Assembly: GCF_003367245.1 (NCBI RefSeq)
Contig: NZ_QRGR01000031.1
Location: forward strand, 1-64,000
Reading direction: 5' to 3'
Length of the DNA stretch: 64,000 bases
Source of the DNA: Pontibacter diazotrophicus
GTDB taxonomy: Bacteria; Bacteroidota; Bacteroidia; Cytophagales; Hymenobacteraceae
In this document: positions 39,087 to 48,398 of the stretch, piece after piece
Position numbering within the stretch: position 1 is the stretch's first letter
Layout: the number at the start of each line of letters is the position of its first letter
Made by a program: the position numbers and the translations under genes
The notes under the pieces: generated by a model
Told to the model about the DNA's origin: nothing
The model's input: the letters and a program-made list of their open reading frames with translations, nothing else
The model's database searches: none

Positions 39087-40616
39087 TTACTTTTTTATGA
39101 ACCTATCAGCCCATGGAATAAAGTACTTGATGTTGGGGGCATCGGTATGGCCGCCATCGTGTTGCCGCCATGCCAGCTCCCCGTCCAGCAAACTGACGTT
39201 TACCCCGGGCATTTTAGCCGTCTTGTAATCGTGGCCTACGCCCAGGTCCCGGGCCCCTAAAAGCTGAAACACCGGGCCGGCCGCTACAGTGGCCATGTAA
39301 CTCCCCTGCTGGTCCAGCCATTTCGCATCGCCTTTTTCGGGTATGCCATAACTTATAAAAGTAGGACGCGGGGCGCATAAGGCAATAAGCTGATGCGCAT
39401 CTACCGGGATATCATTCGCGTTTTTATTGCCGAAAGTAGCCTCCGAGGCTCCATACTTCAGGAAGTTACCTGCCATCCAATGGTACTCTCCGCTACTGGT
39501 CAGGCTTTCCACGGCTTCACCGAAATTGCGCCGGTGCAACTTGGCACCGCCCTCTCCGGAAGAGCCAACCAGGGCCGTAAAAAACCGCTGATCAAATGCC
39601 ATGGCCACCAGTGCCGCCTTGCCAAACCGCGACACGCCTTCTATACCTACATGTTTGGCATCTACCGCCGGATCTGTTTCCAGGTAATCCAGTCCGCGCG
39701 AAGCGCCCCAGGCCCATGCCCTTAGTGCGCCCCAGTCGTCGGGTTTGCGGGGTTGCCCTTTGTTCACCAGGCCAATGATGCCTTTGGTGAGGTCCGCACC
39801 ATTGTCAGCCTGTATGCTGCCCGGCTCAATTAAAGCATAGCCCCAGCCTGCCGCCAGCAGTTGCTGCGGAGTAGGCGGGTCACCAGCCGGTGGAGGGCCA
39901 AAAGTGGGAGCCTGGGATGCAATGGGGTTATAAGCCGGATACTGCTCAAACACCTCCCGGAGCGAAGGATCAGCCTTTACCAGCAGCTCCTTCAGGGCAG
40001 CGTTTACTTTTTCGAGGCTTTCCTTAGGCGGCTGCGCCGGGGCTGGCAACGCGCTGCGCCCAAACATCATTAACACCGGCACCGGCCCCTTGGCGTTGGC
40101 TGGTGTCACGACTGTCATATTTATCTTTACGTCTAGCAAAGGATAGGCTGAGTTATCTACCTGCCCCACCAGTTGTTTTGCATTTACCAGTATCCAGCCC
40201 ACATATTCCCGTTCTGAAATAAGGGTTTTCCAGGTGACCTGCGGCACATTCTCCGGCACCCGCCCGAATACCTCCCGCTCAAACTCCTCCACAATCTCGG
40301 GTCGCCGCTTCTTCCACCACATCTCCGGTGTAGTTACCTTCTTGCCGTTCTTCAGGGTCAGCAGTTCCGGCAGGTTGGGATACGGGTTAGCCAGCGCTTC
40401 ATCGTAGTTGGCGTGATTGGGTGCCGACTCGTCTCCGCTGGGCCCGGGCCGCAGCGCTTTAATGCCCAGCTGCTGCATCATGTGCTGATGATCCTGCTGA
40501 GCGGTAAAATCGACGACCGCCGGATAGGTAGTACCGGCGCTGGCGGTTGCCTGCTGGGCAGAGGCCGGAGCCGAGGCCATTGCCAGGGCAAACAGTACGT
40601 AAATTGCCTTTTTCAT
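39087..40616 (-). CDS. CE15-like esterase, secreted (second copy)
   Basis: The protein has 509 residues with a signal peptide (MKKAIYVLFALAMASAPASA). The nucleophile motif is GVSRFGKAAL, a G-x-S-R-x-G-K variant of carbohydrate esterase family 15, and the catalytic His is likely in QHDGGHTDAP near the C-terminus. Compared with the gene at 21420, it is longer, with an extended N-terminal segment and a proline-rich insertion (about 210-260: GPPPAGDPPTPQQ) typical of large bacterial CE15 enzymes. It follows the sialate-esterase-like gene by 26 nt, so the two are probably one operon devoted to removing ester groups from plant polysaccharide. Confidence 0.87.
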   Translation of the reverse strand: MKKAIYVLFALAMASAPASAQQATASAGTTYPAVVDFTAQQDHQHMMQQLGIKALRPGPSGDESAPNHANYDEALANPYPNLPELLTLKNGKKVTTPEMWWKKRRPEIVEEFEREVFGRVPENVPQVTWKTLISEREYVGWILVNAKQLVGQVDNSAYPLLDVKINMTVVTPANAKGPVPVLMMFGRSALPAPAQPPKESLEKVNAALKELLVKADPSLREVFEQYPAYNPIASQAPTFGPPPAGDPPTPQQLLAAGWGYALIEPGSIQADNGADLTKGIIGLVNKGQPRKPDDWGALRAWAWGASRGLDYLETDPAVDAKHVGIEGVSRFGKAALVAMAFDQRFFTALVGSSGEGGAKLHRRNFGEAVESLTSSGEYHWMAGNFLKYGASEATFGNKNANDIPVDAHQLIALCAPRPTFISYGIPEKGDAKWLDQQGSYMATVAAGPVFQLLGARDLGVGHDYKTAKMPGVNVSLLDGELAWRQHDGGHTDAPNIKYFIPWADRFIKK

Positions 40617-40642
40617 GGGGTGTTGATGAAAGCGTTTGAAAT

Positions 40643-42613
40643 CTATTTATCGGTACGGAAAGGAGAAGCCGGCAAACCTTCTTTGTTGTATAAGTTGGCG
40701 CCATCGGGGTTATCGGCCCAGGCGTAACGCACATATTTTGGCTCCGGCACTTCATCGCTCCACACCACTACCTTGTCTCCCTCAATTCTGGCATTGGCCC
40801 ATACAAATTCCTTGTCGGCTCCGGCTATGGCGAACCAGCTCAGTTCTTCTTCATCGTTAGAAATTAACCCACTCCCCACATTCGTAAAGCTGAGAATGAT
40901 TTCATTTTCATCGATTTCAGCAGATTGAAAAAGCGGGCCAGAAGAAACCACTTTTTTATCGTTGTAAATCAATTTCTGCGCAGCAAGCGCTAAGCGCTCT
41001 CCTACGTCTTTTTTATTGTCCGGGTGGATGTCATTCCACTCTCCCAGGTCAATGGTCACGGCCATGGCGGTGTTTGGCACCGACAAGGTCTGGAGGGCAG
41101 CCTCCCGCATTAGCGCCCAATTACTTTCCGAAGGCAGGTAGTTTACCTCCATAAAGTTCGGAAGTTGCACATAAAGAAAAGGTAAATTGCCTTGCTCAAA
41201 CTTATTTCGCCAATCGCTGATTAAGGCGGGCAGCAGCTTTTTATATTCCGTCGGGTTGCCGGCATTACTTTCTCCCTGGTACCACAGTATGCCTTTCAGA
41301 GTGTAATCTGTAGCCGGTGCCACCATGGCGTTGTATAAAGCCGTTGGCTGGTTTTGCGCGCTGAATCCACCACCAACGCTCCCGCTAACCGGACGGTATA
41401 CCTCTCCTACTTTGTACTGCCAGGTTCCCTTCAGGTCAAGGGTCTGGTTGTTGGCTTCTATGTAATAAGGCTTGTCGGGCACAAACCCGCCTTTACCGCC
41501 AAAGTTCTGCACCCGTATCACAAATGTGTTTTTACCTGGCTTCAGAACGCCTGCCGGCAGGCTGTACCGCCGCTGCGGGTACTGATAGGTGGTATTGCCC
41601 ACCTGTTCTCCGTTGATGTATAAAACATCAGCATCTACAATTCTGCCCAGGAATACTTTTGCCGGCACACCGGCCATGGAGGCAGGCACGTCCAGTTCGC
41701 GGCGATACCAGACAGAACCGTTCAGGTCTTTGATGCCCTGGTCCTCCCAATAACCGGGAATATTGATGTTTCGCCAGCCTTTGGGTTCGTAAGCGGTTTC
41801 GTACCATTTCACTTCCCCCGTCAGCCCCTTGTCCTGCTCTGCTTTTTGTTTGTTAGCATTGGCAGCTGCCTGCGCCTGACGCCTGAAAGAATTCACGTAG
41901 CTGGTGTCTCTGTTTCTATCTATCGCAGCCAGTGCCGTATCAAAGTCCTTCAGTCCTTCTTCGCTCATCCAGGCCTCTATAGGGGTGCCGCCGACACTTG
42001 CATTAATTAAGCCAATCGGAATCTTGTATTCATTGTACAGTTTCCGGGCGAAGAAATAAGCGACTGCCGAGAAATTGTTAACATCCTCCGGGTTCGCTGA
42101 TTTCCACGATCCGGGTGGCAAATCCTGCGCGGGGCCTTCCAGATTGGTTGTGGTAGGAATCCAGAAATGCCTTATCTGCGGGTAGTTGGCAGTGGCAATA
42201 TCATCGGCGTAGGTTATGTTATGCAGCGACATCTGGTGCACCATGTTCGACTGCCCCGAAACCAGGTAAACATCCCCTGCCACTATATCTTTAATGGTAA
42301 TCTGGTTGCTGGCTGTGATGTCCATGGTATAAGGACCGGCTGCTTTTATAGGAGCAAGGGTTATTGCCCAATCTCCGTTGGCATCGGCAGTGGCCCTGTA
42401 CGTTTTGCGGTTGAATTTTACCGTTACCTTTTCGCCGGCTGCTGCCCATCCCCATACTTTCGTTTTCGCATTTCTTTGCAGCACCATGCCATCACTGATG
42501 AGCTCCGGCAGCTTCACCTGGCCCAGGGCTTTGAATGCTGAAAATTGAAAAAGACACAGGGCCAGGAGCCCGGCAAATTTTAATTTATCAATCTTTATCT
42601 GTTTGTGATACAT
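40643..42613 (-). CDS. Sialate O-acetylesterase-like SGNH carbohydrate esterase
   Basis: The protein has 656 residues and a signal-like N-terminus (LKFAGLLALCLFQFSAFKAL). SGNH landmarks: block I VSGQSNMVHQ with the catalytic Ser, NASVGGTPIEAWMS, GILWYQGESNA, and the late block DIHPDNKKDVG with the Asp-x-His pair. A galactose-binding-like beta-sandwich insertion (about 275-400) separates the two parts of the catalytic domain, as in Bacteroidota sialate O-acetylesterases. Such enzymes also deacetylate xylan. Co-transcription with a CE15 esterase makes a hemicellulose substrate more likely than sialic acid. Confidence 0.9.
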   Translation of the reverse strand: MYHKQIKIDKLKFAGLLALCLFQFSAFKALGQVKLPELISDGMVLQRNAKTKVWGWAAAGEKVTVKFNRKTYRATADANGDWAITLAPIKAAGPYTMDITASNQITIKDIVAGDVYLVSGQSNMVHQMSLHNITYADDIATANYPQIRHFWIPTTTNLEGPAQDLPPGSWKSANPEDVNNFSAVAYFFARKLYNEYKIPIGLINASVGGTPIEAWMSEEGLKDFDTALAAIDRNRDTSYVNSFRRQAQAAANANKQKAEQDKGLTGEVKWYETAYEPKGWRNINIPGYWEDQGIKDLNGSVWYRRELDVPASMAGVPAKVFLGRIVDADVLYINGEQVGNTTYQYPQRRYSLPAGVLKPGKNTFVIRVQNFGGKGGFVPDKPYYIEANNQTLDLKGTWQYKVGEVYRPVSGSVGGGFSAQNQPTALYNAMVAPATDYTLKGILWYQGESNAGNPTEYKKLLPALISDWRNKFEQGNLPFLYVQLPNFMEVNYLPSESNWALMREAALQTLSVPNTAMAVTIDLGEWNDIHPDNKKDVGERLALAAQKLIYNDKKVVSSGPLFQSAEIDENEIILSFTNVGSGLISNDEEELSWFAIAGADKEFVWANARIEGDKVVVWSDEVPEPKYVRYAWADNPDGANLYNKEGLPASPFRTDK

Positions 42614-42705
42614 AAAAGTGATTATGGTAAAAGTTACAAATGAGCAAGCCAGGCCATTATCTAACTCACAAATAGTGCCGCTATTGCCCCTTTTTGTTGC
42701 TTATT

Positions 42706-42912
42706 AAAGACATTAGGCAACACCAGACATAGTTTTTTTTCAAGTCCCGGCGGGACGACCTGTTAATAGCCTGATATCCAGAACCCGCCCTTAGCTCCAG
42801 CGGAGCGGCCTGTAAAAATATCATCAACAGGTCGCTCCGCTGGAGCTAAAAAACAGTTAGACTCTTTTTCTATCGACAGGTCGTCCCGCAGGGACTTTTG
42901 CGTAATGTCGGT
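42706..42912. repeat. Fold-back MITE-like element, most complete copy
   Basis: This 207-bp element lies in the gap 42614-43371. The right end TTGCGTAATGTCGGT pairs imperfectly with the left AAAGACATTAGGCAA, flanked by TTATT and TATTA. Nested inside are an outer arm pair, AGTCCCGGCGGGACGACCTG against CAGGTCGTCCCGCAGGGACT, and an inner pair, TTAGCTCCAGCGGAG against CTCCGCTGGAGCTAA, around a loop of about 13 nt. From the left third onward it aligns with the element at 15753. No open frame exists inside, so it could move only with a transposase supplied elsewhere. Confidence 0.8.
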
Positions 42913-42955
42913 TATTATATAACTCAAGTCGCGATTGTTCCTTTGCAGTTGAATG

Positions 42956-43035
42956 AACCCATCCCTAACCCCTCCAGGGAGGGGAGTCTTACTTGTAGGC
43001 CGAAATTCCCCTCCCTGGAGGGGCAGGGGTGGGTT
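42956..43035. repeat. Long palindrome beside the fold-back element
   Basis: Two arms of about 32 nt (42956-42987, beginning AACCCATCCCTAACCCCTCC; 43004-43035, ending GGGGTGGGTT) pair with few mismatches around a 16-nt loop. Its CCCCTCC...GGAGGGG composition resembles the core of the element at 22705. It could be the core of another, end-less copy. The rest of the gap up to 43371 holds nothing else I recognise. Confidence 0.75.
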
Positions 43036-43371
43036 TTCAATGGTAGCGAAACAGTGAAATGTGCTCATCGCAACTTTTATTAAATAGTCCAAAGTAAAGA
43101 AATCCAGGCTGAATATTTTACTAAAAGCTTAGTAAAAACAAAATTGTAATTAAAAATCAGCAATAGCTGAGTTAAAACATTAACATCAGCTGCAGGTTTC
43201 ATGCGCTCCCCTCCCTGAAACAGAGACAATGACAGGAACACATTAAGCAGCGTTTAAAGTCCCGTTGGGTTACCTGTTCTTTAGAACATTATAATATTTC
43301 TATATCACCTCCCCTGCATTTAATGGTAAATTCACTACCTTATGCTTCTGTTTAAACACCGAGTAAATTAC

Positions 43372-43661
43372 ATGCCAAAACCAATACGCCAGCAGCTAGA
43401 TTTAGGAAACATACTCTGGAACGCCGCCAAAGTATTGCTTGATGCTGTAGCCGAACACCGAGCCGCTACGTGGGCTCCGAAGCCGAGGAAGACGACGGTG
43501 TTCCCTTCGAAGAGAAGATGAAGCTGCTGACCACTGAACTGGCGACTCAGTTTGAGGAAAGTGCCTTGCTGGAGAAGCGGATTCGGGAGAATCTGGAGGG
43601 GATTGGATTTACTGTCTTAATTGGGATTCGTCAGATGAATGGATTTCAGGAGAATAAGTGA
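43372..43661 (+). pseudogene. hsdM: Remnant of type I restriction methyltransferase subunit (hsdM)
   Basis: From the ATG at 43372 the translation begins MPKPIRQQLDLGNILWNAAK, the typical start of Bacteroidota HsdM. The frame then fails and stops at 43521. In another frame, from about 43455, it continues with the family C-terminus (RYVGSEAEEDDGVPFEEKMK, then LEKRIRENLEGIGF). Nearly the whole methylase core, including NPPY, is therefore deleted, with a frame change at the junction. The last codons run into a palindromic repeat at 43614. This is a dead gene and part of a decayed type I system with the hsdR remnant at 47105. Confidence 0.8.
43567..43591. repeat. 25-bp direct repeat, left copy (right copy 44216-44240)
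   Basis: A 25-nt stretch of the hsdM remnant (TGCTGGAGAAGCGGATTCGG and five more bases) recurs exactly at 44216-44240, just after the right palindromic repeat. The two copies bracket the GxxExxY gene and its repeats, as a duplication made on insertion or an unequal recombination would do. Confidence 0.85.
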
Positions 43662-43714
43662 AGAATAAAAAAAGATTCCAATAATCTAAAAATCCCGCTT
43701 ATCCAAATTCAGAC
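43614..43714. repeat. Palindromic repeat left of the GxxExxY gene
   Basis: This 101-nt element begins GTCTTAATTGGGATTCGTCA and ends ATCCAAATTCAGAC, giving imperfectly complementary ends. It aligns with the element at 44110-44205 to the right of the gene (shared TTGGGATT-GTCAGAT, TAATC-AAAAATCC, CCAAATTCAGAC). It starts within the tail of the hsdM remnant and ends 8 nt before the GxxExxY ATG. Confidence 0.75.
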
Positions 43715-43722
43715 AACAGCAC

Positions 43723-44115
43723 ATGGAAAAGGAAAAGATTGAAGACGAACTGACCTACAGGATTATCGGGTGTTCGATGAAGGTACACGGCACGCTTGGC
43801 AATGGCTTTCAGGAAGTAATCTACCAAAGAGCGCTGGCCATTGAATTAGAAAAGGCGCAGCTTAGCTTTGCAAGAGAACTGGAGATGCCTATTTTTTATG
43901 ATATGATAGAAATAGGCAGCAGACGGGTTGATTTCCTGGTTGAAAACAAAGTACTGGTAGAACTAAAGGCGCTGGTAAAGCTGGAAGATGTTCATCTTGC
44001 CCAAGGCCTTAATTACCTGATAGCTTACAAATTAGATATAGGCTTGTTGCTGAACTTCGGAGCAAAAAGCCTGGAAGTAAAAAGGCTGCGCCACCCGCTG
44101 AATAAACGTGTCTGA
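43723..44115 (+). CDS. GxxExxY protein (PD-(D/E)xK nuclease-like)
   Basis: The protein has 130 residues. The family signature GNGFQEVIY (G-x-x-E-x-x-Y with E34 or so) is near the N-terminus, followed by VDFLVENKVLVELKAL, which gives the D-x(n)-E-x-K arrangement of the PD-(D/E)xK nuclease fold, and by a conserved Q (HLAQGLNYL). It is small and cytoplasmic. The GxxExxY family is common in Bacteroidota and its function is not established to my knowledge. The gene is tightly framed by two related palindromic repeats and inserted into an hsdM remnant, which suggests a mobile gene-repeat unit. Confidence 0.88.
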   Translation: MEKEKIEDELTYRIIGCSMKVHGTLGNGFQEVIYQRALAIELEKAQLSFARELEMPIFYDMIEIGSRRVDFLVENKVLVELKALVKLEDVHLAQGLNYLIAYKLDIGLLLNFGAKSLEVKRLRHPLNKRV

Positions 44116-44205
44116 ATTGGGATTTGTCAGATTTATGGATGAAAAGATTAGAAAGCAAAATCTTAAATCCATAAATTCAATAATCCCAAAAATCCAAATT
44201 CAGAC
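44110..44205. repeat. Palindromic repeat right of the GxxExxY gene
   Basis: This 96-nt element overlaps the gene's last codon. The left arm GTCTGAATTGGGATTTGTCA... pairs with the right arm ...CCCAAAAATCCAAATTCAGAC; ATTTATGGAT and ATCCATAAAT form the inner stem. It is a more regular copy of the element at 43614. It can also act as the gene's terminator. Confidence 0.8.
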
Positions 44206-44306
44206 TAAAGGGCTCTGCTGGAGAAGCGGATTCGGGAGAAAGCTAAACTATGTAAATTTTCTGAACTGATTTTAAATAACTTATAACATTACTAACTGCA
44301 ACTAAA

Positions 44307-46658
44307 ATGGCTTTTATTGATCAAACTAAAGTTATAGAGATTGAGAAAAAAATAACTAGTGATTTATCATTTTTAGGGAAAGTTTATAAAGCCAAAAAGA
44401 ATAGTCATCAAACTATAAGTATAGATCATTCTTTAGTTGATAGCTATATAAAAGTTGGATGGGAAGAATACACTAAACCATTAAAAACTAAAACAAAATT
44501 ACGTAAGCCTAGATCTCATTCTAAACAATTTGAGGATGATGTTTGGTGTCAGTTTTATGAGCTAGGTTACAGAACAATGAACTTTGACGAAAGTTTAAGT
44601 TTGTATTTTAGTAATAACAGCAATGACAAAAAACAAATTGACGTAATAGCAATAAATAATGATACAGCCTTCATTATTGAGTGCAAATCAAGTGAAAAGT
44701 TCAAAAAAGCGCCAAGTTATAAAGATGAATTTGAACTACTTGGTCTTCGCCTAGATGGGTTTAAAAAAGTATTACATCAAATTTATGGGAGAAATCTTAA
44801 AATTAAATATGTTTTTGCGACAAGGAATCTGAGAATTGATAAGGATAGTGAAGACATGAAAAGATTTAATTCAACAAATTCTTTTCTCTATAACAACAAC
44901 ATTTTCAATTATATAAATAGCTTAATTAAGAATTATAAAGGAGTAGCATTTTATCAATTTTTAGGCCTAGTGTTTAAGAATGAATTGATTAGTAAAGACA
45001 GAATCGAAATACCAGCAATCAAGGGAGAGATGGGCACTAAATCATACTATATGTTTTCACTAGAACCATCGCTATTACTTAAAATGGGATTCATTTTGCA
45101 TAGAACAAAAGTTAATGAATCTGAACTGCCAACATATCAAAGATTACTGGTACCTAGTAGGCTATCAGGAATAACTAAATTTATAGACGAAGGAGGTTAT
45201 TTCCCAAACTCAATAATAATAAACTTCAGTAATAAGAAGCATAAGATACAGTTTGAAGCTAGTTCAAAAGCCTCAGCATCTAACTCTTGCTTTGGTACTT
45301 TAAAGGTTCCTAATAGCTATGGCATAGCCTATATCATAGATGGCCAACACAGAGTATATGGATATGCTAATTCTAATTATAAAAACTCTAACACAATTCC
45401 TGTTGTAGCCTTTGATAATTTAGATACTAGTGAGCAATTGAAGATCTTCATGGACATCAATGAAAATCAAAAAGCAGTTAGCCCGAGTTTAAGATTAGAC
45501 TTAGAAGAAGATTTGTATTGGAATTCTGATAGAGCAGATTCAAGAATAAAAGCCTTAAGATCATCAATTATCAAAAAACTTGCTAATTCTCAGTCAAGTC
45601 CATTGTTTGAAAAAATTTCTGTAGGAGAAGACAAAGCAGTATTAGCTTTCAAACCATTTTCAACAGCGCTGTCATATAGTGATTTATTACCTAGTGCAAA
45701 GGGTAATCATTTTTCTGAAAATGCTATAAAATACTCTCTTTATAATGTATCTAATCATGACCATAATAAAGAAATGTATAGTTGCCAAAAAAGAATTGTT
45801 AGTCTATTAACTCTATGTTATGATTTTGTAGAACAAGATTACTCTGACATTTATTACGCTGAAAGTTCATTTATATTTTCTAATAGAGGAACTTTTGCTT
45901 TTATCTGCCTTATAGGAAACTTACACAGACACTTGATTGACAAAGCACTAATCAATAAAGATACTGATATCGATGTACGCTTTACCTTAATCAAAAGCTA
46001 TTTATCTTCATTACTTGAGTATTTAAGAAATAAAATGACTGATGATGAAAAAGAAAAGCAATTAAGTTTACTTGGTGCAGGAGCAGATATAAAGTGGCTG
46101 AGGTTCTTTCAAAGTATAATTAATAAATCTCACCTTGATTACTACCCTACAGAACTTATTGATTGGAATGAGAGGCAAGATGAGGAGCTACAGAACAAAG
46201 GTCGAACATTAGGTGTAGAAATTGAGAAAAAAATGAAAGCTCTTGTGCTCAATAAGATGAAGACTATCTATGTTGAGGATTGGGAATTAGAAATTAACAG
46301 TATTAAACGCGAATGTCAGAATAGAGCAGAACAAGAGATGGAGAAGCATTATAAGGAAGGATTAGGAAGAAAAACCGTTCATTGGACAGAAATGTTTAAC
46401 ATAAATGATTACAAAACTATAATTGAAAAATATTGGACCAAGCTCCCCGAACAGAAAAACGGTGATTTTAAGACTTTTGAAAAGGATTTTGCCATAGATG
46501 TTGGTGAAGGGTTGGGTAGCAAGTCAAAATCTTTAAAATGGATTTCATTCTTTAACTCATACAGAAACTTGTGGGCACATGAAGGAACTAAAGAAAAGAG
46601 GTTGAATAAGGAAGAGGTCAACTTTATTGAAAAAATACATAGCCATTTCTACAATTGA
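44307..46658 (+). CDS. PD-(D/E)xK-DGQHR-HEPN multidomain protein, putative defence protein
   Basis: The protein has 783 residues. N-terminal part (about 70-175): FEDDVWCQFYELGY with E76, then D112 and E125-C-K127 spaced as in PD-(D/E)xK nucleases. Middle (about 230-420): DGQHR domain with IIDGQHRVYGY (D345-R349) and IFMDINENQKAVSPSL, as in DndB and related proteins of DNA-modification systems. A charged, coiled-coil-like stretch (about 640-700) leads to a C-terminal domain ending in YRNLWAHEG, where R753-N-L-W-A-H758 matches the RNxxxH motif of HEPN RNases (Swt1-like region). The gene is far more AT-rich than its neighbours and lies between hsdM and hsdR remnants, so recent acquisition is likely. 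No dndCDE genes are nearby. Role inferred: a self-contained anti-phage effector. Confidence 0.85.
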   Translation: MAFIDQTKVIEIEKKITSDLSFLGKVYKAKKNSHQTISIDHSLVDSYIKVGWEEYTKPLKTKTKLRKPRSHSKQFEDDVWCQFYELGYRTMNFDESLSLYFSNNSNDKKQIDVIAINNDTAFIIECKSSEKFKKAPSYKDEFELLGLRLDGFKKVLHQIYGRNLKIKYVFATRNLRIDKDSEDMKRFNSTNSFLYNNNIFNYINSLIKNYKGVAFYQFLGLVFKNELISKDRIEIPAIKGEMGTKSYYMFSLEPSLLLKMGFILHRTKVNESELPTYQRLLVPSRLSGITKFIDEGGYFPNSIIINFSNKKHKIQFEASSKASASNSCFGTLKVPNSYGIAYIIDGQHRVYGYANSNYKNSNTIPVVAFDNLDTSEQLKIFMDINENQKAVSPSLRLDLEEDLYWNSDRADSRIKALRSSIIKKLANSQSSPLFEKISVGEDKAVLAFKPFSTALSYSDLLPSAKGNHFSENAIKYSLYNVSNHDHNKEMYSCQKRIVSLLTLCYDFVEQDYSDIYYAESSFIFSNRGTFAFICLIGNLHRHLIDKALINKDTDIDVRFTLIKSYLSSLLEYLRNKMTDDEKEKQLSLLGAGADIKWLRFFQSIINKSHLDYYPTELIDWNERQDEELQNKGRTLGVEIEKKMKALVLNKMKTIYVEDWELEINSIKRECQNRAEQEMEKHYKEGLGRKTVHWTEMFNINDYKTIIEKYWTKLPEQKNGDFKTFEKDFAIDVGEGLGSKSKSLKWISFFNSYRNLWAHEGTKEKRLNKEEVNFIEKIHSHFYN

Positions 46659-46701
46659 TCTTTTAAAAGATTATTTAGTTACTCCATTACTTTTAAAGAC
46701 A

Positions 46702-46815
46702 GCGTCACAACTTATTGGGAATGTGAAATACCAGAAGCAACCTTTTACATAAAGCTTTCGAGCTGTATGGTGAGGTCAAATATAAACAATACTAAATTCC
46801 GATAAGTTGTGACGC
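46702..46815. repeat. Inverted-repeat element of about 115 bp
   Basis: GCGTCACAACTTAT (46702-46715) is perfectly complementary to ATAAGTTGTGACGC (46802-46815), and the match extends imperfectly for several more bases into GGAAT. The 85-nt centre has no gene. It could be a MITE, an IS end pair or the remnant of one. No clear target duplication is visible. It marks the right side of the AT-rich insert. The rest of the gap 46659-47104 has nothing else recognisable. Confidence 0.7.
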
Positions 46816-47104
46816 CCTCTATATACTTTGGAAAATTCTCATTGATTTAGTACTGTAATTACATTAGATGATAGCCAAGCAGACTAAACCTTGCGTGGCT
46901 ATCATACATTCTTACCTACTGTACTCTACTCCACCTCAGCCCCTGTACGTACGCCTGTTGAGTTCAGAGGCGAACGTACAGCAGATTAATAAAAGCTATT
47001 TCGTATAGCAACAATGCCTAAGTTTAGTATTGTTTTACCATTTCACGTAGCAGTTAGTAGAAAAAGAGGTAGCAGTTGAAAAATATAAAATATAATCAAC
47101 TCAG

Positions 47105-47404
47105 GTGCAGTATAGAGATCTTGCTGATGGTAAATTCAGAGATGGACTAAAAGAGTTGAAAGACGATACCGGCAAAGACCACTTTGGCCACTTCTACCCT
47201 ATCGCCTACGATGCTGTTTCGCAGAACGAGTTCCTGGTGGTCAATCAGTTCAGCATAGAAGGCAAAAACAAGCATCGCCCCGATTTACTTTTGTTCGTGA
47301 ACGGCCTGCCGCTGGTGCTCTTCGAATTCAAGAACCGGTTCGATGCCAACGCCACCATCGAAAAGCTTTCAACCGGGCAAGACCACGAAAATGGCGTGCA
47401 ATAA
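47105..47404 (+). pseudogene. hsdR: Remnant of type I restriction subunit (hsdR), N-terminal part
   Basis: The 99-residue frame from a GTG matches the HsdR N-terminal nuclease region: NEFLVVNQFSIEGKNKHRPD followed by LLLFVNGLPLVLFEFKNRFD, which holds the D-x(n)-E-x-K nuclease motif. It lacks the true N-terminus and all helicase and translocation domains (a full HsdR is about 1000 residues), and stops after an unrelated tail (ENGVQ). It is a decayed partner of the hsdM remnant at 43372, left on the far side of the inserted genes. Confidence 0.8.
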
Positions 47405-47433
47405 CTTAACAAGTACCTTTCCGGATGTAAAAA

Positions 47434-47459
47434 AAGCCTCTCCGGAAATGGAGAGGCTT
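47434..47459. terminator. Terminator hairpin after the metallopeptidase gene
   Basis: AAGCCTCTCC and GGAGAGGCTT form a perfect 10-bp stem around a 6-nt loop. On the minus strand the stem is followed by a T-run, so it fits the end of the gene whose stop is at 47499. Confidence 0.8.
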
Positions 47460-47498
47460 CCTGTTTTGCTACTGGTGTATAGCGGTTAAGCTGTTTAT

Positions 47499-48398
47499 TT
47501 ATAACTCGGTGGCGTTGAAGGTATCACCCTGTGACAAATCGCCTGTCTCGAAGCCTTTTCTGAACCAGCGGACTCTTTGGGCAGAGGTGCCGTGTGTGAA
47601 GGAGTCTGGCACCACTCTTCCTGTGGCTTGCTTTTGAAGACGGTCATCACCGATGGCACTTGCTGCATTCAGGGCTTCTTCCAGGTCGCCGGGCTCCATA
47701 AACCCTGTCGCTCTTTGGGTATGATGCGCCCACACACCGGCATAGAAATCAGCCTGAAGCTCTACTCTTACCATGAGTTTATTAAATTCCACTTCGGATA
47801 GTTGGCCCCGCATGGCGTTTACCTGCTCCATCGTACCCGTGAGATTCTGCACATGGTGCCCCACCTCATGGCCAACCACATAGGCCTGCGCAAAGTCTCC
47901 TTCAGCACCCAGCTTGCGTTCCATCTCGCCAAAAAAGCTTAAGTCGATGTACAGTTTTTCATCGCCGGGGCAGTAAAAAGGTCCAGATGCAGAGGACGCT
48001 GTACCGCAGGCGGAGTTTACCTGCCCCGAAAACAGCACCAGGGTAGGTTCTCTGTACCCTTCTAACATCCTGTTCCAGACATCTTCGGTATCTGCCAGCA
48101 CCACGGCCGTCTGGTCGGCCAGTTCCTGCTCTTCCGGGCTTGGCTGGTAATTGGTTGACTGTGTATATTGCGGTTCCCCGCCCACAAACTGCTGCAGCAG
48201 CGCTATCGGGTTGGTTCCTGTCAGGAACATTACCGCCACCAGCACCGCCACAATAATCAGCCCTACTTTCGAGAAAAGGAGCCGGAACAAAGGTATAAGC
48301 AGCATCGGACTGAGCCCTCTGCCTCCTCCAAAACCGCCTCCTGATTGTCCTCTACGGTCTTCTATATTGCCGCTTTTTCTTCTGCCCTGCCATTTCAT
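47499..48398 (-). CDS. Neutral zinc metallopeptidase (YpfJ family)
   Basis: The protein has 299 residues. A glycine-rich start (KWQGRRKSGNIEDRRGQSGG) is followed by one membrane helix (about 38-62) and the peptidase domain with the zincin motif HEVGHHVQ, the upstream CGTASSASGPFYCPGDEKLY segment and ELQADFYAGVWAH supplying the third ligand region. This layout is that of COG2321/YpfJ. It is a membrane-anchored peptidase facing the periplasm, with unknown substrates. It appears monocistronic. Confidence 0.92.
   Translation of the reverse strand: MKWQGRRKSGNIEDRRGQSGGGFGGGRGLSPMLLIPLFRLLFSKVGLIIVAVLVAVMFLTGTNPIALLQQFVGGEPQYTQSTNYQPSPEEQELADQTAVVLADTEDVWNRMLEGYREPTLVLFSGQVNSACGTASSASGPFYCPGDEKLYIDLSFFGEMERKLGAEGDFAQAYVVGHEVGHHVQNLTGTMEQVNAMRGQLSEVEFNKLMVRVELQADFYAGVWAHHTQRATGFMEPGDLEEALNAASAIGDDRLQKQATGRVVPDSFTHGTSAQRVRWFRKGFETGDLSQGDTFNATEL

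Follow-up and report, generated by a model that had tools for sequence, protein, structure and literature searches.

GxxExxY genes of Pontibacter and the inverted, boxed arms around them may form a compact one-gene mobile element

Homing endonuclease elements are built around a nuclease and are known from recurrent sites, with occupied and empty alleles. The REPs of REP-RAYT systems are 20-40 bp long (PMC3733652), and insertion sequences may be accompanied by MITEs, as exemplified by the IS982-derived MITE of Cardinium (PMC9769881). The intervening sequence (IVS) of Coxiella carries tandem heptamer repeats before its ORF and is called a selfish element, the same paper describing IVS functionality and origin as unclear (PMC4990558). 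The 23S rRNA IVS is the closest described layout that we found for the locus studied here, a GxxExxY gene within a stretch of 64,000 nucleotides from Pontibacter diazotrophicus (contig NZ_QRGR01000031.1; hereafter, the window). Our literature searches combined GxxExxY or PDDEXK_3 with repeats and covered the arm sequence, IVS and four-helix proteins, and Pontibacter palindromes; among the matches listed, and with subscription literature mostly outside the search, we found no paper on the role of GxxExxY proteins and no description of this type of element.

An earlier note, made from the sequence alone, had placed the gene between two related imperfect palindromes, the right one overlapping the stop codon of the gene (Table 1). 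The coordinates and the relatedness of the two palindromes hold: their direct alignment scored 36, and none of 500 shuffles scored above 20. The TGA of the gene (44113-44115) lies within the right palindrome (44110-44205), as the note had said, and the stop of the hsdM-relic ORF (43659-43661) lies inside the left one. By itself, the right palindrome is also beyond chance, with an arm score of 18.0 (maximum of 15.0 in 1000 shuffles) and a single-strand DNA fold at z = -6.0 (0 of 200 shuffles doing as well), whereas the left palindrome alone is within chance by either measure (arm score of 10.5, below the shuffled maximum of 12.5; z = -0.02, with 92 of 200 shuffles doing as well). We take the left palindrome to be a decayed copy, given its kinship with the right one and the presence of a palindrome on each side in L017, a close relative of the window element. 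Inverted repeats of other types, including CCCCTCCCTGGAGGGG, lie near the element at 42737-43036, and sequences like these are nested within gene-less copies elsewhere.

Table 1. Coordinates of the window element and of the hsdM remains that adjoin it
Feature	Position	Strand	Remarks
Whole GxxExxY element	43614..44205	+	Left palindrome, gene, right palindrome; 592 nt
Left imperfect palindrome	43614..43714		101 nt; outer half is the left arm; contains the TGA ending the hsdM-relic ORF
GxxExxY gene	43723..44115	+	130 aa; PD-(D/E)XK fold (predicted); D70, E80-x-K82 conserved
Right imperfect palindrome	44110..44205		96 nt; shares 6 nt with the 3' end of the gene, stop included
hsdM relic (type I methylase gene)	43400..43610	+	About 60 nt of the 5' region joined to the last 153 nt
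34-nt hsdM 3' fragment, second copy	44207..44240	+	Right of the element; 91% to 43558-43591

The window protein matched PF13366 (PDDEXK_3; E 2e-37, 128.6 bits against a curated cut-off of 22) and TIGR04256 (GxxExxY; E 4.3e-39, 133.5 bits against a cut-off of 35), and D70, E80 and K82 were invariant across 60 sequences. For the AlphaFold model (pLDDT 91.3), the best solved structural match, and the sole chain with a Z of at least 8, was SSO0001 (4ic1_G; Z 9.6, rmsd 4.0, 102 residues aligned), which we take to be a Cas4-family nuclease; a sequence search of PDB chains gave no match up to E 10. The protein is predicted from these matches to be a member of the PD-(D/E)XK nuclease superfamily, with the D ... 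E-x-K arrangement in its fold. Profile searches found no known transposase domain in it: PF13366 was the sole match at E up to 0.01, and the Y1/HUH transposase family (PF01797) was absent. Nor did the profile search and the model place it in the S23p four-helix family or fold. The likening of the locus to REP-associated elements in the earlier note thus finds no support in the strict sense, the only Y1_Tnp gene concerned being a separate one at the nfi spot described below. The median dN/dS was 0.064 (range 0.035-0.28; of 276 pairs, 7 had a usable dS), and purifying selection acts on the protein. The protein is thus selected to work, yet the gene breaks or is lost repeatedly, at least five broken copies having been found (G002, G003, G007:C18, G044:C2 and G045).

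Other roles and origins of the gene were considered and rejected. For a defence protein the sole hint was a weak Cas4b match (E 0.0035); for phage cargo, tblastn gave 0 matches in 50,697 phage records, and for plasmid cargo, matches in 4 of 72,556 plasmid records; of 19 viral-contig candidates, 0 were confirmed. At 24-26% identity, its fold nevertheless closely resembles that of two viral proteins (G8DDC4 and a nuclease of Halogranum tailed virus 1; E about 1e-10), so that a distant viral tie may exist.

Of 50 Pontibacter genomes, 25 carried the gene. At 28 of the 29 Pontibacter loci tested, the inverted arms exceeded those of 30 shuffles; some further loci (e.g. G033:C52, G007:C4 and G007:C18) lie outside this set, and a distant homologue (L006, 35% identity) was left out of this test and of the counts of arm similarity, arm period and element length. 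The packaging of the nuclease gene in its own repeats, which the earlier note had proposed for a single gene, is therefore supported and recurs around other GxxExxY genes, in Pontibacter and, as shown below, elsewhere. The arms begin near GTCTGAA, followed by GATT boxes about 9 nt apart, and in some elements, that of the window included, the two sides are each doubled to make a complete palindrome; a second GxxExxY gene in the same genome (C16:62318) has single inverted arms, GTCTGAATCAGGATTTGCAGGAT ..., on both sides. Autocorrelation of the arms peaked at lag 9 (0.40-0.44 against 0.28-0.30 shuffled, for sets of 40 and 28 arms), and the element was 532-592 bp long in 21 of the 25 Pontibacter copies with both ends found. 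The arms are more alike within one element than between elements (similarity of 0.62 vs 0.29; 27 loci, of which 26 passed, the broken L029 and L030 having been dropped), and arm types differ by protein type (GTCTGAATCAGG..., GTCTGAATTTGG..., GACCAGTGATTA..., GAGACCAGG... and TTTGAACCATG...), subfamilies being judged by eye from sequence and arms. Arm type and protein type are correlated in Pontibacter (Mantel 0.73, 0/2000). Gene and arms are inherited together; therefore, this correlation shows one unit and not, by itself, recognition, and it may simply reflect common descent.

Beyond the genus, the named loci were the best 80 of 579 confirmed ones and are thus skewed toward close relatives; 77 are not from Pontibacter, and the remaining three (L066, L078 and L140) were removed for the arm-similarity, period and control-window tests and kept in the motif-density, G-U and mismatched-pair tests. 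Of the 75 loci from other genera that had sufficient flanking sequence, 36 passed the arm test and 39 failed it, the number passing ranging from 36 to 40 depending on the random shuffles; among 405 control windows taken from these loci, 8 passed. The 36 loci belong to Bacteroidota (28), Fibrobacterota (4), Spirochaetota (2), Cyanobacteriota (1) and Calditrichota (1). Either arms or the motif occurred at 66 of the 77 non-Pontibacter loci among the best 80 of 579. The density of a simple version of the motif was about 31-fold higher up to 400 nt from the gene (122 in 62,205 bases) than beyond 800 nt (15 in 240,302 bases), and outward motif arms occurred on both sides in 27, on one side in 23 and not within 400 nt in 30 of the best 80 of 579 loci. 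A mismatched-pair control, passed by merely 3 of 78 loci, was uninformative because unrelated loci share the motif, and was replaced by the control windows. The correlation of arms with protein was weak outside Pontibacter (0.108, 197/2000). On these counts the association of the GxxExxY gene with arms is general.

Evidence of movement came from three close relatives, L021 (genome G014), L024 (G038) and L032 (G028). Over about 549 nt, arms included, the whole elements are 89% (L021/L024), 83% (L021/L032) and 82% (L024/L032) identical, their flanks share no match, and the site of L021 was located elsewhere in the G038 and G028 genomes. We consider it well supported, from sequence comparison, that the GxxExxY gene and its arms make up one unit that has been mobile in the past. 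Elements this similar at three unrelated sites count against the possibility, improbable in our view, that these are old vertical insertions that are only decaying, with arms that are inert or homogenised by recombination and a unit no longer mobile. Purifying selection on the protein counts against it as well, and the broken genes, the gradual decay and the presence of the same sites in several species are in its favour.

The unit is usually found at a gene boundary, its end often overlapping the stop codon of the neighbour. The left end was within 35 nt of the 3' end of an ORF in 18 of 26 loci, 10 of the 26 sharing the nfi site, and overlapped it in 14; at one site (L011, L026 and L033) the element reaches the stop codons of two ORFs that converge. 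Six recurrent sites (10 loci at nfi, then 3, 3, 3, 4 and 2) account for 25 of 30 loci, each sharing its flanks with at least one other, and 5 are single. Such recurrence favours a homing-type element, as the earlier note had suggested, in which the nuclease would cut alleles lacking the element at one conserved gene end, recombination would copy the element in, and every subfamily would have a site of its own. We regard this version as unlikely: it gains from the recurrence of identical sites and loses from the three relatives at unrelated sites, from the many gene-less copies at unrelated places and from the lack of co-conversion reported below. Orientation also varies at a given site, L008 being reversed relative to L007 and L010, and this argues against homing and vertical decay alike.

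The largest of the shared sites is the 3' end of nfi (the endonuclease V gene, PF04493), which was read in 49 genomes. Thirteen carry a gene-bearing element there, with the gene intact or broken, and in 12 of the 13 it lies at one codon position. In 9 of these 12 the native nfi stop gives way to the GTC TGA of the arm; G004 and G023 have a TAA variant, and in G007 the element is without the first bases of the arm. In G000 the element is about 14 nt downstream of the others, behind an intact stop, and in G047 the gene is reversed; the reversal, like the second insertion point, tells against homing into one fixed site and against vertical descent. A gene-less copy was found in G026, GTCTGAATCAGAC only, with the two ends fused, in G046, and a doubtful remnant in G041. 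The same nfi spot holds a RAYT-like gene with its own palindromes in four genomes (L208, L218, L246 and L253); Y1_Tnp was recognised for L246, and the other three were judged by eye.

Trees of the nfi site bear on both of these alternatives. On the host-gene tree the 12 nfi carriers need 12 changes, against a shuffled mean of 10.9, so that identical insertions sit in scattered lineages, as homing would have it. The host genes flanking the site agree with one another (0.56, 0/2000), and the element gene agrees poorly with either (0.24, 102/2000; 0.11, 465/2000), which vertical inheritance would not lead one to expect. There is one supported conflict suggesting transfer: the G014 element groups with that of G005 (bootstrap 98) and the G014 host genes group with those of G045 (100). 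The element-gene alignment rejects the host tree (AU p 0.004); this is not decisive, because the two host flanks likewise reject each other's trees. Co-conversion of the nfi flanks was not seen, 311 of 2000 permutations being as low. In favour of vertical descent, the carriers or remnants at a second site in G015, G022, G019, G024, G044 and G026 are grouped in a single region of the nfi tree.

This second site, also read in 49 genomes, abuts the start codon of a neighbouring gene, which we take from its reading to be an alpha/beta hydrolase gene. Four genomes have an intact GxxExxY gene there, one (G044) a decaying one, and seven (G019, G026, G001, G002, G000, G027 and G041) a gene-less two-ended copy, ends having been accepted with up to 4 mismatches in 16 and the left end of G002 being weak. 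With intact, decaying and gene-less states at one site, gene-less palindromes can thus be remains of gene-bearing elements. The earlier note had called for empty sites to be found in close relatives; between them, nfi and the second site present intact, decaying, gene-less and fused-end states. The empty sites have diverged from the occupied ones and were compared by eye, so that no target duplication is defined.

Gene-less copies are frequent. A search for the repeat with and without the gene, another of the checks named in the earlier note, found the arm motif in 49 of the 50 Pontibacter genomes, up to 84 times per genome and with 0 matches to a reversed control. The genome of the window holds five short two-ended copies of 139-184 nt besides its two gene-bearing elements, and G017, which is without the gene, has 75 arm-motif matches; since the repeats are numerous in such genomes, the gene is not needed for their persistence. 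The independence of gene and repeats, which the earlier note had named as counting against its reading, therefore holds in one direction: repeats without the gene are common, and the gene without arms is rare (1 of 29 Pontibacter loci). Many of the 29 arm copies read in G017 (L402-L430) are the edge of larger mosaic intergenic repeats, mostly 70-85% alike. A pattern search for fused-end scars gave 15 forward matches in 13 of 50 genomes against 6 in the control, most of them unlike fused arms; the pattern cannot match the scar of G046, which is the only clear one. What remains after loss of the gene is a gene-less palindrome, a solo end or a fused-end scar.

In the window, the element adjoins remains of a gene that we take, from its C-terminus, to be hsdM; the 63-aa relic ORF matched no family in a profile search. 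Positions 1-60 and 59-211 of the relic, used as a query, match about 1.4 kb apart in G000:C36 and merely 28 nt apart in G015. Intact hsdM ends are present in other genomes, and several finish ...GAGAATCTGGAGGGGATTGGGTTTGGGTTGTAA (e.g. L365 and L366); the window element therefore starts in the last codons of hsdM. The 34-nt hsdM repeat to its right does not make a clean target duplication. An HsdR N-terminus lies nearby, in a short ORF (47105-47404). Between this ORF and the relic, positions 44307-46658 encode a 783-aa protein with a DGQHR/DndB-like middle domain, preceded by weak nuclease matches, which resembles DpdB in PADLOC. Different sequence follows the hsdM 3' end in nearly every Pontibacter genome read (L363-L381), and this end is a variable cargo spot in Pontibacter.

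A further alternative is that the arms act as RNA, either as a hairpin in the transcript of the neighbour, processed by RNase III as in the 23S IVS, or as a terminator or stabiliser with a hitch-hiking gene. The inversion of the arms, their position often at gene 3' ends and a layout like that of the Coxiella IVS are consistent with such a role, which we consider highly improbable in view of the arm differences and of the Rfam searches. Differences between the arms of GxxExxY elements do not clearly favour G-U-compatible changes on the sense strand (84+63 = 147 sense vs 69+65 = 134 antisense, binomial p 0.47), so nothing here indicates that the arms are maintained as RNA. No Rfam match up to E 1 overlaps the window element, and at gathering scores the 40 loci scanned gave a single match, to a tmRNA over 1 kb away from the gene. 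A known RNA family at the arms was looked for and rejected, two sub-threshold miRNA matches falling outside the window element.

The explanation that we prefer, and to which we give an even chance of being right, is that of a selfish mobile element, mostly 532-592 bp long, whose Cas4/RecB-like nuclease acts on its own arms; we infer cutting by this nuclease. The PD-(D/E)XK protein would bind the boxed arms, one subunit per box, and introduce breaks that let the element insert, or be copied, at gene boundaries. The route could be either transposon-like movement or homing into an allelic empty site. Gene-less palindromes would largely be decay products of the element, and some of them may be moved in trans.

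Pontibacter offers a parallel. Genes for four-helix IVS proteins are present in 47 of the 50 genomes, PF05635 being confirmed for L176, and inverted arms were found at 26 of the 30 such genes tested (L176-L205). Their period is 7: autocorrelation of 27 arms reached 0.505 at lag 7 and 0.465 at lag 14, against about 0.29 when shuffled. The unit sequences vary widely (TAGATGT, GACACAA, TCGTTGT, GAGTTCT) at an unchanged period, and in Coxiella, too, the heptamers precede an ORF of this kind. We put forward only tentatively, and rather doubt, that the GxxExxY and four-helix elements are two branches of one undescribed selfish class, with ends made of inverted arrays of family-specific period (9 and 7 nt); given the varied units of the four-helix branch, the encoded protein might then recognise, or even generate, the spacing of the units and not their sequence.

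If GxxExxY proteins are encoded by a compact element whose ends are defined, the boxed arms become a testable substrate, many intergenic palindromes of Pontibacter are explained as relics, and GxxExxY proteins are linked in layout to rRNA intervening sequences. Placement at stop codons would be a way for a selfish gene to live in a genome with little harm.

The locus can now be set against the described systems. With homing endonuclease elements it shares a nuclease, recurrent sites and occupied and empty alleles, and it differs from them in its inverted arms, its dispersed gene-less copies and its relatives at unrelated sites; no co-conversion was detected at nfi. As in REP-RAYT systems, small palindromes surround a gene for a DNA-acting protein and gene-less palindromes are dispersed between genes; the GxxExxY arms, however, are arrays of 9-nt boxes, unlike REPs, and GxxExxY proteins have no Y1/HUH family. 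Like insertion sequences with MITEs, the element has inverted ends, one gene and short gene-less derivatives with the same ends, and it has both their terminal inverted repeats and, in L021, L024 and L032, the same unit at unrelated sites; it differs in having no transposase family and in ends that are periodic arrays. Like the 23S rRNA IVS (S23p/IVP, PF05635), it would on our preferred reading be a small selfish element that has one gene and inverted arms at its ends, and in both these arms are built of short iterated units, heptamers in Coxiella and a period of 9 here. Unlike the 23S IVS, neither positions 40000-48000 of the window nor 40 of the 80 named loci (best 80 of 579) gave an rRNA match, and the GxxExxY element has a predicted PD-(D/E)XK nuclease instead of a four-helix protein, a period of about 9 nt and no sign of selection at the RNA level.
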